From: Clostridiales bacterium
GTDB lineage: Bacteria > Bacillota > Dethiobacteria > Dethiobacterales > Dethiobacteraceae
NCBI GenBank assembly: GCA_018335855.1
Contig: JAGXRM010000030.1
Coordinates: forward strand, 1-64,000
DNA length: 64,000 bases
Direction: 5' to 3'
Part shown: positions 27,921 through 63,918 of the stretch, piece after piece
Position numbering within the stretch: the first letter of the stretch is position 1
Layout of the letters: each line of letters begins with the position of its first letter
Notes under the pieces: generated by a model
What the model saw: only the letters and a program-made list of their open reading frames with translations
The model's database searches: none
Told to the model about the DNA's origin: nothing
Position numbers and translations under genes: made by a program

Positions 27921-27983
27921 TTTTAAGGCAGGACTTTTAAAGCTTTCGTCAAAATATTATGACAATGCGGAGGTGAATAAAAA

Positions 27984-28811
27984 GTGCCATCTGTTAAATT
28001 AGTACAAGCAGAAGAAGCGCTAATGCTGGTTAAAGACGGAATCCGTTTGGGTTTAGGCGGCAGTCCTTTAACGATGAACCCGGTTTCGTTGGTTGCGCAC
28101 GTTATTGAGAAAGGCATTAAGGATTTGGACGTAGTTGTGGCACCTATTGGCGGTTTTGCTGCTGACATGTTAATCGGTGCCGGTGCAGTAAGATCTGTGG
28201 AGTTTGCCCAACTTGGTTTTGAGGAAATGGGTATGGCTCCGAATTTCCGCAAGCGCTCCCAGGATGGAATGCTGCGGACGCTGGATCATACGTGACCGGG
28301 CTTGCTTGCAGCGCTCCAGGCTGGAGCGATGGGTCTGCCTTTCATGCCTGTTCGCGGTGTAATCGGGACAGACTACACCCGTGTACGACCGGACTTTATT
28401 ACTATTCCCAACCCTTACGGTGATGATGAGATTCTGGTTGTCCCGGCAGTAAATCCGGATGTTTCACTGATTCACGCTTTTAAAGCCGACCGGTTTGGTA
28501 ATTGCTTAGTGAATAGCAGTATCGATGATGCCCTCTTAGCCAGAGCTTCGGGGAAGGTTATTGTTTCTGCTGAGGAAATTGTGGAGACCGATGATTTAAA
28601 AGCTTCGCACCGGGGGAATTTTATCAGCCGTGTTCATGTGGATGCGGTTGTCCACTTGCCAGGCGGTGCATTTCCCACAGCTTGCGGTAGCTTGTACCGG
28701 ACTGGTGTTTCCATGCTGACAGAATATCTTGCCGCTGCAAAAGACGACACAACGTTTGCCGGCTATCTGGCTGACTTTTGTCGGCGTGTGAAAGACGGAG
28801 GTGAATTTTAA
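27984..28811 (+). CDS. CoA-transferase family I subunit A with in-frame UGA (candidate selenoprotein)
   Basis: The frame of 275 codons matches the alpha subunit of family I CoA-transferases (GctA/IpdA-like): LGLGGSPLTMNPVSLV near residues 33-48, then GAGAVRSVEFAQLGFEE, then LQAGAMGLPFMPVRG and FITIPNPYGDDEILVVPA. It is interrupted only at codon 104 by TGA (28293-28295); the same frame continues intact to the stop that overlaps subunit B. The residue follows DHT and precedes PGLLAAL. A hairpin (CGCTCCA-GGC-TGGAGCG, 28312-28328) has its loop 23 nt after the UGA, as in bacterial SECIS. Either Sec is inserted here or the gene has a nonsense mutation. It starts at GTG 27984 behind GCGGAGGTG. Confidence 0.7.
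28312..28328 (+). promoter_or_regulatory. Candidate bacterial SECIS hairpin
   Basis: A perfect 7-bp stem (CGCTCCA with TGGAGCG) closes a GGC loop; opening the A-U pair gives loop AGGCU, similar to the AGGUCU loop of E. coli fdhF. The distance from UGA to the loop (23 nt) is within the usual range. Because it also encodes the conserved LQAGA, the fold could be accidental. Confidence 0.45.
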
Positions 28812-29536
28812 TGCAATATACAATGGAAGAGTTAATGGCCGCCCGGATTGCCCGGGAAGTGGTAAACGGGGAAACCGTGGCTGTCGGTACCTTCTCCCCT
28901 ATACCAGCATGTGCCGGACTTCTGGCGAAGTATAGCCACGCGCCGGACAGTGAGCTTTTTATAATGGGCAGCCGGGACTGGTGGCCTTTTTCTGAAGGAA
29001 GTCAGGAATTTTTTAATCTTGCTCAGCGCGGCCGTTTTGATTACTTTTTTCTTAGCGGTGCACAAATAGACCGGATGGGCAATATTAATTTGCATGCCAT
29101 CGGCGATTATACCCGGCCCAAAGTTCGTCTGCCGGGTGGGGCCGGCTCGTCTATGTTATACTATATGGTAAAGAAAGTGATACTTTTTAAAACGGATCAC
29201 ACGGAGAAGTCTTTTGTTGAAAAGGTCGACTTTATCACCAGTGCGGGTTCTTCCCCTCCCTCTGTTCTGCGGCCTGGAGGTCTTCACTTTGTGATTACAC
29301 CGCTGGCTCTGATGGTTAGAAATCAGCAAAGCGGCTTCTTAGAACTGGCTTCGGTACATCCCGGCTCCAGCAGTGATGATGTGCAGAAAAATACAGGATT
29401 TGAGTTGCCTTTGTCCAGTCATTATGTCGGTGAGACCTTGCCTCCGACCGATGAGGAGTTAACACTGTTGCGTGGTCCCGTCAGGGAAGAACTGGCAAAA
29501 ATATATCCGGCCTTCGCCAAGAAGGCTTTCGGGTAA
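28811..29536 (+). CDS. CoA-transferase family I subunit B (IpdB-like)
   Basis: The 241-residue protein is the beta partner of the alpha subunit and overlaps its stop by one base. It has the beta-subunit pattern ELMAARIAREVVNGETVAVGTF at the start, FFLSGAQIDRMGNINLHAIGDY near residues 74-95 and GGAGSSMLYYMVKKVILF. In true CoA-transferases a catalytic glutamate stands in the strand before the GSR-like turn; here that strand reads ELFIMGSRDWW, with no glutamate at the expected position. That resembles IpdB-type enzymes, which hydrolyse or open CoA esters instead of transferring CoA. The substrate is not clear. Confidence 0.8.
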   Translation: MQYTMEELMAARIAREVVNGETVAVGTFSPIPACAGLLAKYSHAPDSELFIMGSRDWWPFSEGSQEFFNLAQRGRFDYFFLSGAQIDRMGNINLHAIGDYTRPKVRLPGGAGSSMLYYMVKKVILFKTDHTEKSFVEKVDFITSAGSSPPSVLRPGGLHFVITPLALMVRNQQSGFLELASVHPGSSSDDVQKNTGFELPLSSHYVGETLPPTDEELTLLRGPVREELAKIYPAFAKKAFG

Positions 29537-60569: not shown

Positions 60570-61727
60570 TTAATTCTCACGAATTATTTCGCTTAGAGCA
60601 CTAAGGATGTGTTCTACATCGCTGGAAGTATTGGTCCATCCTAACGAGAAACGGAGAGTTCCCTGAGGAAATGTACCGATGGTCCGGTGAGCAAGTGGTG
60701 AGCAGTGTAGCCCGGAGCGAGTCATAATGCCAAAGCCTTGTTCGAGCATAAAACTGAGGTCACCGTTATCCATGCCTTTTACATTGATGGAAACGGTGGC
60801 AGCGGTGGTATGCGGGTTTTTTGTGCCGTAGACCTCGATTTCCGGCATCTCTGCCAGACCCAGAAGCAAGGCTGCTGTCAGTTCCCGTTTATGTTTTTGC
60901 AAGGTCTCCAGCCCCAGTTCATTAACCAGTTTTACACCTGCAGCCAGTCCGGCTATACCGGGAACATTCAGTGTGCCACTTTCAAATTTATCGGGAAGAA
61001 AGCCGGGCTGGTTCTCATCTTCTGATCGGCTGCCGGTTCCTCCCTCTACCAGAGACTCGGTAGCTTCCGCCGCTCTTTCGCTGATGCAGAGGCCGCCGAT
61101 GCCCGGAGGGCCCAGTAATCCTTTGTGACCGGTGAACGCCAGGTAGTCACAGTTCATGGCGCCAAAACCTAAGCTTTCACTGCCGGCAGTCTGGGCGACA
61201 TCTATGGCATAGAAAATATCTTTACCCTTCAGGATTTCGCCGACTTCATGAACGGGCAGAAATGTCCCGGTGACATTGGAAGCATGGGTAAGAACAACTA
61301 GTTTTGTCTGATTATTGATGGCATTTTTTACTTGTAGTGGGTCTAATGTCCCGTCTGTGTTGCACTGTACAACGTCCAATGTAACAGCCCGCTCCCGTAC
61401 GAGGCGGGTCAGAGGGCGAACAACTGAATTGTGTTCCATGGAAGAGATAATCACATGATCACCCTGTTGCAGGAGGCCTTTAATCAGGAGATTTAACGAA
61501 TACGTCACACTGGGGGTAAAGACCACTTGTTCCGGTTGAGGTACTTTGAAGAATTCGGCCATTAAAGCTCTTGAGTCATAAACTAACCGGGATGCATCTA
61601 ATGATCTGCGATAGCCGCCCCGTCCCGGGCTGCAACCAATATCCAGAAGAAAAGACGACATAGCTTCCGGCACCTGAGGATGTCTTGGAAATGTTGTGGC
61701 GGCGTGATCTGCATATACTTCCCTCAT
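60570..61727 (-). CDS. Cysteine desulfurase-like enzyme of the selenium module
   Basis: The 385-residue PLP enzyme of aminotransferase class V has YADHAATTFPRHPQV, SSMEHNSVVRPL and THASNVTGTFLPVHEV, the lysine in FTGHKGLLGPPG, and RSGLHCSPLAHR with a late cysteine. Such family members are found beside yedE/yedF/sel genes and probably mobilise selenium or sulfur. The gene overlaps the LysR gene by 4 bases, so the two form one transcript. Confidence 0.87.
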   Translation of the reverse strand: MREVYADHAATTFPRHPQVPEAMSSFLLDIGCSPGRGGYRRSLDASRLVYDSRALMAEFFKVPQPEQVVFTPSVTYSLNLLIKGLLQQGDHVIISSMEHNSVVRPLTRLVRERAVTLDVVQCNTDGTLDPLQVKNAINNQTKLVVLTHASNVTGTFLPVHEVGEILKGKDIFYAIDVAQTAGSESLGFGAMNCDYLAFTGHKGLLGPPGIGGLCISERAAEATESLVEGGTGSRSEDENQPGFLPDKFESGTLNVPGIAGLAAGVKLVNELGLETLQKHKRELTAALLLGLAEMPEIEVYGTKNPHTTAATVSINVKGMDNGDLSFMLEQGFGIMTRSGLHCSPLAHRTIGTFPQGTLRFSLGWTNTSSDVEHILSALSEIIREN

Positions 61728-62638
61728 TTTCTATCCTCCTGGTAATATGTTTTCATAATGAAATCCCTGAGAGCTTTAGCCGCAGGTGAAAGAATCCGTT
61801 TGTCGTGGTGGACAAGATAGAATTCTCGCTTTAAGTCCAGATCCTGTAGTGAACGGACAGCCACCAGTCCAAATTCCTGATAGTCTTCCATGACCAGCCT
61901 GGAGATAATAGTAATACCCAGCCCACGTCTTACGACTTGCTTGATTGTTTCCTGACTATTGTACACTGTAAAATGAATATCGTTTAGAGTAATTCCGTTT
62001 TTAAGCAGTTCCGCTTCAAAAAAGGAACGGGTACCGGAGCCTGGTTCCCTCATCAAAAGTTTATAGCCAATGATATCAGCAACCGTTAGGTTGTTTTTAT
62101 GTAATAATTCCTGGTATTCTTCCCTGTTTGGTACAGCCAAAACGAGTTCGTCGTTTAGAAGAGCGGTATATGTAAGTCTGGGCAAAAAATGTTTTTCGCC
62201 AACAATACCATATGGGTAATGATAGTTATGTACATCCTCGCATACCTGGCGGGAGTTTTCCTGTTTTAATGCAACCGAAACCATGGGAAACTGCAACTCA
62301 AAAGCGGCCACTATCTGGGGAAGCAAATACTGGCACGGTACAGAACTTGCCGCAATGGTAAGAGTTTCCTCACTGACTATATTACTGCTTCTGATGTCAG
62401 CCAGAGCGTTTGCCCGGATATCGAGGAGATCTCTGGCATAACGATACAGCGTTTCACCGGCTGAGGTTAAGATTATTTCATTTTTACCCCGGTCTAAAAG
62501 GGGCATGGCCAGTTCAGTCTCCAGGCTCTTCACATGGGCACTGACGGTTGGCTGACTTAAAAATAATTGCTGTGCAGCTTTAGAAAAGGAACGTTGCGCA
62601 ACAACGGCAACAAATGCTTCCAGTTGGTAGAACTCCAT
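61724..62638 (-). CDS. Selenium-associated LysR regulator
   Basis: The 304-residue LysR protein has an HTH (FVAVVAQRSFSKAAQQLFLSQPTVSAHVKSLE, residues 9-40) and the co-inducer domain (MREPGSGTRSFFEAELLKNGI). It is divergent from yedE with a 194-bp gap, the usual arrangement for autoregulation. The ligand is unknown. Confidence 0.87.
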   Translation of the reverse strand: MEFYQLEAFVAVVAQRSFSKAAQQLFLSQPTVSAHVKSLETELAMPLLDRGKNEIILTSAGETLYRYARDLLDIRANALADIRSSNIVSEETLTIAASSVPCQYLLPQIVAAFELQFPMVSVALKQENSRQVCEDVHNYHYPYGIVGEKHFLPRLTYTALLNDELVLAVPNREEYQELLHKNNLTVADIIGYKLLMREPGSGTRSFFEAELLKNGITLNDIHFTVYNSQETIKQVVRRGLGITIISRLVMEDYQEFGLVAVRSLQDLDLKREFYLVHHDKRILSPAAKALRDFIMKTYYQEDRK

Positions 62639-62832
62639 ATATTCACCGTCCTTGCGTTAGTATTTTCGCAAACAGAATGATAATTCCTGCCGCTGTCTGT
62701 GTGCAAAGTCATTTTTTGTATTCTTGTGTCATCAGTATTTTCTATAACAGCAAAAATGTAATAGTTAAAACCTATTTGTTAGTAGGATTTGCAGTAAGTA
62801 TAATGAATGTGGTTACTAATTATTGGAGGTGA
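62639..62832. promoter_or_regulatory. Divergent promoter region between the LysR gene and yedE
   Basis: No gene. It should hold the LysR operator; I see no certain TN11A box. AGGAGGTG-like TTGGAGGTG at 62824-62831 is the yedE ribosome-binding site. Confidence 0.4.
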
Positions 62833-63918
62833 ATGATGAATAAACGTTTAATTATTGTTAGCGGGATTATAGCGGGATTTTTTGGAGTGCTGCTTGTCCG
62901 GTTCGGCAACCCGGCCAATATGGGTGTTTGTGTTGCCTGTTTTGTACGGGACATATCAGGGGGGCTGGGCTTGCACAGGGCGGCAGCTGTCCAGTACATA
63001 CGGCCTGAAATATCCGGATTTATTCTTGGCTCATTTATTATTGCCTTGTTTGTAGGAGAGTTTCGCGCCCGCGGAGGCTCTTCCCCCATTATCCGCTTCT
63101 TTATTGGAATGGCTGTAATGATTGGAGCATTAGTTTTTTTGGGCTGTCCGCTGCGCATGGTTTTACGGCTTTCTGCGGGTGACCTGAATGCATTGGTTGG
63201 TCTGTTCGGATTTATTTTTGGTATCTATATTGGTGTACTTTTCCTGCGGCGCGGTTTTTCTCTGGGGCGTTCCTATAATCTGAGCTCCGGTAACGGTATG
63301 GCAATCCCTGTACTCGCTATTATATTGGTTATTCTTTTGATGACGGCACCTATATTTATCTTTTTCAGTGAAAGCGGTCCCGGCGCTGCCCGTGCTCCGT
63401 TTCTTATTTCCCTGGCGGCAGGTTTGATTATCGGCATGGTCGTTCAACGCAGTCGTTTATGTCAGGCTGGTTGTTTCCGTGACCTGATGCTGATTAAAGA
63501 CCCACACCTGCTTTACGGCTCTCTGGCGATCTTTGTCGCTGCTTTTATCGGTAATATGGCGCTTGGTTACTTCAAATTCGGCTTTGCCGGTCAGCCTGTC
63601 GCCCATACAGACGGTGTTTGGAATTTCCTTGGCCTTGCCGTTGTTGGCTTGGGTGCCACCCTTCTTGGCGGTTGCCCTCTGCGTCAGACGGTAATGGCCG
63701 GTGAAGGTGACTCGGATGCGGCCATGGTTTTTCTGGGATTGTTATTTGGCGCTGCTTTCTCCCATAACTTCGGGTTGGCCGCAAGTCCAGCCGGTGTCGG
63801 CGCAGCTGGTCAATGGGGCGCTGTGATTGCCGGGGCTTTCCTCCTCCTCGTCGGCTTTACATTTACACTGCCAAAGGTTAAAATCCCAGTTAAAGGGGGC
63901 GTCACCCATGAGCGGTAA
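62833..63918 (+). CDS. yedE: YedE-family selenium transporter
   Basis: The 361-residue membrane protein has about ten helices and the paired cysteine signatures of YeeE/YedE: GCPLRMVLRLSAGD (about residue 104) and GCPLRQTVMAGEGDSD (about 279), plus RLCQAGCFRDLML. These proteins are proposed to import selenium compounds. The yedF gene follows with an 11-base overlap. It starts behind GGAGGTG. Confidence 0.92.
   Translation: MMNKRLIIVSGIIAGFFGVLLVRFGNPANMGVCVACFVRDISGGLGLHRAAAVQYIRPEISGFILGSFIIALFVGEFRARGGSSPIIRFFIGMAVMIGALVFLGCPLRMVLRLSAGDLNALVGLFGFIFGIYIGVLFLRRGFSLGRSYNLSSGNGMAIPVLAIILVILLMTAPIFIFFSESGPGAARAPFLISLAAGLIIGMVVQRSRLCQAGCFRDLMLIKDPHLLYGSLAIFVAAFIGNMALGYFKFGFAGQPVAHTDGVWNFLGLAVVGLGATLLGGCPLRQTVMAGEGDSDAAMVFLGLLFGAAFSHNFGLAASPAGVGAAGQWGAVIAGAFLLLVGFTFTLPKVKIPVKGGVTHER

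Follow-up and report, generated by a model that had tools for sequence, protein, structure and literature searches.

In this study, we revisited a gene that is seemingly broken by a stop codon and lies in a 64,000-nucleotide stretch of DNA (referred to here as the window), and our sequence comparisons indicate that the gene is almost certainly intact, its in-frame UGA codon being read as selenocysteine (Sec). The best reading of the data is that the gene belongs to a selenoprotein family with a CoA-transferase fold, which is absent from the published lists checked and is shared by dozens of distant anaerobes. Taking together what we infer about the insertion of Sec, its catalytic role and the acyl-CoA chemistry, it is very probable that this unlisted family represents an IpdAB-like acyl-CoA enzyme in which Sec is the catalytic residue. 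An earlier sequence-only reading of the window had proposed that the subunit may be read through with Sec, and this proposal is supported by the presence of TGA or Cys codons in homologues, by a covarying hairpin and by the Sec machinery of the organism.

The features of the locus are listed in Table 1. Translation of positions 27984–28811 gives a single internal stop, the TGA at codon 104, and all downstream codons are in frame, which bears out the previous statement that the frame is interrupted solely at this codon. The alpha gene starts with a GTG codon, with GGAGGTG upstream of it, and the following gene overlaps normally, as had also been described: the TAA stop of the alpha gene and the ATG of the beta gene share one base (28811). 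Both subunits match the Pfam family CoA_trans (PF01144). Among homologues, substitutions follow an equal coding pattern on either side of the TGA, with third codon positions varying most; the changes per site at the first, second and third positions are 0.236, 0.163 and 0.591 downstream of the UGA versus 0.326, 0.188 and 0.604 upstream of it. Elsewhere in the window TGA is an ordinary stop, which ends 6 of the 32 ORFs of more than 200 amino acids, and for this reason an alternative genetic code, in which TGA would be a sense codon throughout, was rejected.

Table 1. Features of the alpha–beta gene pair, with positions in the window
Feature	Position	Strand	Remarks
Likely ribosome-binding site (GGAGGTG) for alpha	27969..27975	+	From sequence
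Alpha-subunit gene, CoA-transferase-fold enzyme	27984..28811	+	275 residues with UGA as Sec; PF01144 5.3e-18
In-frame UGA, Sec104 (predicted)	28293..28295	+	Opens helix 104-116; aligned to IpdA Glu105
SECIS hairpin (predicted)	28312..28328	+	7-bp stem, GGC loop 28319-28321; fits bacterial SECIS model in PMC13188914
Beta-subunit gene	28811..29536	+	Without CoA-transferase catalytic Glu; Met52 at GctB Glu54

After removal of duplicates, we counted 41 distinct UGA-bearing homologue genes (33 in a main clade, four in the group of locus L153 and four in the group L186–L189), and in the alignment the UGA falls on the identical codon in all of them. Their hosts belong to the organism's own class, to a deltaproteobacterial phylum and to other Bacillota. 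A first search of relatives had returned six more close homologues with one in-frame TGA each, and a class-wide search of 98 genomes gave 11 close homologues, all 11 with exactly one TGA; searches around L041, which comes from a deltaproteobacterial MAG, and in the class of genome G764 gave one-TGA matches in 22 genomes and in eight, respectively. More distant family members, which are of the Asn type, are nearly all stop-free. The sequence-only reading had suggested that close homologues be aligned in search of Cys or TGA, and one or the other is indeed present at codon 104: in the nearest relatives that have no UGA, position 104 is either Cys, encoded by TGC or TGT (L042, L143, L154, L156 and L185), or Glu (L144, L152, L155 and L158–L160), and distant homologues have mostly Asn or His. 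With regard to single loci, the contig of the UGA gene L120 covers part of the gene, the profile match L197 (G133) was reported with one TGA and one TAA, and in genome G372 the Sec pair has, at a distance of about 2 kb, a second alpha–beta-like pair (L171:4022-5888), which clustered with alpha and beta subunits.

The main Sec clade received support values of 100/99 in a phylogeny of 57 rows. A second well-supported group mixes Sec sequences (L153, L182–L184 and L186–L189) with Cys sequences (L156 and L185), the latter being nested among the former. The distribution of Sec on this tree requires three changes, and since two of these are forced by well-supported branches, Sec has been gained or lost at codon 104 more than once, that is at least twice, with either direction being possible.

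In the structural model of the alpha subunit (pLDDT 94.7), residue 104 is the first residue of a helix. The best fold match is to the IpdA entries of IpdAB, the hydrolase that opens a cholesterol ring in Rhodococcus and Mycobacterium (PDB 6co6, 6coj and 6con; Z 35.8 over 273 residues, rmsd 1.8 Å, 27% identity), followed by AibA of the AibA/AibB decarboxylase (PDB 5mzw; Z 33.8 for alpha and 24.7 for beta) and by GctA of glutaconate CoA-transferase, a family I enzyme (PDB 1poi; Z 33.1 for alpha and 25.0 for beta). The alpha-subunit values of these three leading families are close, so that the fold alone selects no single family and the residues have to decide. Family I CoA-transferases use glutamyl-CoA chemistry (PMC12400318). 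The window pair resembles glutaconate CoA-transferase in the fold of both subunits and in the two-gene alpha–beta order; however, the catalytic Glu54 of GctB corresponds to Met52 in the window, and the other aligned beta subunits of the Sec clade likewise have no Glu in this stretch. In a beta subunit that lacks the catalytic Glu, glutamyl-CoA chemistry as it is known cannot run. The sequence-only reading had called the protein a CoA-transferase; while the homology to family I stands, the activity label is probably wrong, and judging from its residues the enzyme probably does not act as a genuine CoA-transferase.

The beta subunit of the AibA/AibB decarboxylase is also devoid of the catalytic Glu, but the AibB variant structures replace beta Cys56, whereas the putative reactive residue of the window pair is in the alpha subunit; the window beta subunit has no Cys in the stretch aligned to AibB Cys56, with Ile or Met found there. 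IpdAB, which does not carry out CoA transfer, is without the CoA-transferase Glu as well (Gly57 in IpdB; PMC5380842). Codon 104 aligns to the site that is E in the sequence of 6co6 and A in that of 6coj, and the title of 6coj describes an E105A variant in complex with a substrate-CoA; our statements on Glu105 are based on the PDB titles, on this sequence difference and on PMC5380842. The two systems differ in that IpdA has Glu105 where the window protein would have Sec104 at the aligned active-site position of alpha, and in that no steroid genes were seen near the window pair. As both the CoA-transferase Glu and the AibB Cys are missing from the beta subunit, Sec104 is the natural candidate for, and most likely is, the catalytic residue. 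R124, an Arg that follows the active site, is not retained in all Sec members. A search of the gene neighbourhoods revealed no conserved pathway, and the contexts differ between groups: adenine deaminase and HAD genes are neighbours in the window's own family only, an acyl-CoA synthetase (AMP-binding) gene adjoins a few members (L172 and L180), and L094 and L179 have a leuA-like gene and an ADP-ribosylglycohydrolase gene as neighbours.

According to the mechanism we propose, the TGA is a Sec codon to which SelB would deliver Sec-tRNA(Sec), aided by a hairpin beginning 16 nt past the UGA; the resulting 275-residue alpha subunit would associate with the product of the adjacent beta gene. Sec104 would open a helix at its N terminus, in the position of IpdA Glu105, and its selenolate would replace the carboxylate as the nucleophile or base in an IpdAB-like acyl-CoA enzyme, for which hydrolysis, retro-aldol type cleavage, decarboxylation or acyl transfer are candidate reactions. 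A more specific version, towards which we are tentative and lean slightly to the doubtful side, is that Sec104 acts as the attacking group on the acyl-CoA and itself becomes the carrier of an acyl-selenoester (or CoA-bound) intermediate; this would be covalent, non-redox chemistry in a CoA-transferase fold in which the beta Glu is gone and the alpha catalytic residue has been swapped among Glu, Cys and Sec. It is unlikely that Sec is inserted but serves redox chemistry or metal binding instead of acyl-CoA catalysis. Although prokaryotic selenoproteins are mostly thought to be redox enzymes (PMC13188914), no UxxC or CxxU motif was found around residue 104, and the relatives carry Glu, and not Cys alone, at what is the position of IpdA Glu105.

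The insertion of Sec at codon 104 would require a dedicated machinery, for which a search had been recommended earlier, and selA, selB, selD and a tRNA-Sec were all found in the genome. The genes selD, selB and selA lie side by side, with NCBIfam scores of 365, 385 and 578 bits, respectively, all above the cut-offs, and the tRNA-Sec has the anticodon TCA (UCA in the RNA; 72.9 bits). In the selD gene itself (L089:4860-5927, minus strand), the known UxxK motif contains a TGA in frame; the plain ORF call for this gene begins after the TGA and hence shortens it. In the window, a cysteine desulfurase, a selenium-metabolism LysR protein and the YedE selenium transporter are encoded together at 60570-63918 (NCBIfam), in keeping with three of the selenium genes listed by the sequence-only reading; the fourth, yedF, was not seen up to the window end. 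SelB scored above the curated cut-off in the organism's own genome and in 28 of the 33 other UGA-bearing genomes tested, and was absent at E 1e-60 in the remaining five (G023, G061, G079, G133 and G193). G023 is 75% complete, G061 has a tRNA-Sec and G079 is rated 97% complete, and incomplete assemblies account for only part of these absences. In genome G012, two selB matches (C15:38582-40456 and C34:5109-6983) have identical scores and perhaps represent a duplicated assembly stretch.

It has been reported that in some Desulfobacterales UGA is decoded as Cys by a selC*-type tRNA-Cys with a UCA anticodon together with SelB* (PMC7609411). Such decoding is very improbable here, although the genome carries, besides tRNA-Sec, a selC*-like tRNA-Cys (94 nt, with a long variable arm) and relatives with Cys at codon 104 exist. 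In each of the three genomes examined, the selC*-like tRNA has the anticodon GCA, which would leave UGA unread; the tRNA found to match this codon is tRNA-Sec (TCA), a single SelB lies above the cut-off in the own genome, and selD, a known Sec gene, uses TGA in the same genome. The 94-nt long-arm tRNA-Cys resembles the selC* tRNA-Cys class of PMC7609411; it was found at G000:C32:16609-16698 (L111) and also at L110 (G010) and L112 (G001), scoring 53–58 bits against the tRNA-Sec model.

The sequence-only reading had described a perfect 7-bp hairpin with a GGC loop 23 nt past the UGA, the fit of which to bacterial SECIS elements was to be checked, and we could confirm its coordinates and pairing (28312-28318 with 28322-28328, loop 28319-28321). 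The bacterial SECIS model in PMC13188914 has a loop of 3–9 nt with a G in the first two positions, a stem of 4–16 bp, a distance of 16–37 nt from the UGA and an MFE of ≤ −7.5. The window hairpin, which begins 16 nt downstream of the UGA, has a UGA-to-loop spacing of 23 nt and a regional energy of −12.1 kcal/mol (29 nt), agrees with this model on every count. As the stem sits inside coding sequence, a synonymous-codon randomisation was performed: the Sec genes have 6.41 of 7 stem pairs observed versus 3.81 expected, and the non-Sec homologues 3.52 observed versus 3.82 expected. The covariation score was 0.363 versus 0.145 for shuffled alignments (0 of 500), with slid registers at ≤ 0.099, and in the stem alignment of 34 sequences 91.6% of the cells are paired and five of the seven pairs have changes on both sides; RNAalifold independently recovered the same stem. 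The hairpin is hence maintained by paired, compensatory substitutions among Sec genes, and it is not formed in Cys, Glu or Asn homologues, including the Cys relatives L156 and L185. A second Sec lineage has rebuilt the stem with different letters (GGACTGCGGGCCGCAGTC), and a third has a stem with the five-base loop CGTGC. As a whole, the region does not stand out in folding energy (z −0.4 to −1.3), and the evidence therefore lies in the specific pairing seen in the synonymous-codon and covariation tests and not in stability. An Rfam search of the region gave a chance match only.

UGA recoding competes with termination, and PMC4513850 gives 30–40% recoding in vivo, which might suggest that the UGA and hairpin form a regulatory switch whose usual product is a truncated alpha subunit of 103 residues, read-through being incidental. 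We consider this hardly credible, since such a product would comprise under half of the fold and end before the helix starting at residue 104, and since stop-free relatives have Cys or Glu in place of this codon. The sequence-only reading had thought a nonsense mutation possible, the window being said to have real pseudogenes, and a lone TGA in one genome would look alike. The chance that the alpha gene is such a pseudogene is practically negligible, being refuted by forty other distinct genes in which this codon is likewise TGA and further opposed by the protein-level constraint past the TGA and the covarying hairpin.

With known prokaryotic selenoprotein families, the Sec-containing alpha subunit predicted here shares a UGA with a bacterial SECIS close downstream, Cys homologues, and SelA, SelB, SelD and tRNA-Sec; it differs from them in that its surroundings hold no thiol-redox motif and in that a 2026 review, which tabulates 119 such families, includes no CoA-transferase or CoA-transferase-fold family among them (PMC13188914). 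A claim linking selenocysteine with a CoA-transferase was not found in the open-licence papers searched, so that a report elsewhere may exist, and none of the NCBIfam models among the matches names a Sec-containing family with this fold. The statement of the sequence-only reading that no described Sec CoA-transferase is known thus held within this table and literature. Genes of this kind are probably mis-annotated as truncated genes or pseudogenes, and their role in anaerobic metabolism may have been overlooked. If our reading is correct, Sec would occupy the catalytic position of a widespread acyl-CoA enzyme family, which would extend its use beyond redox-type chemistry, and the natural series of Glu, Cys and Sec at one position would provide a test of the benefit of selenium.
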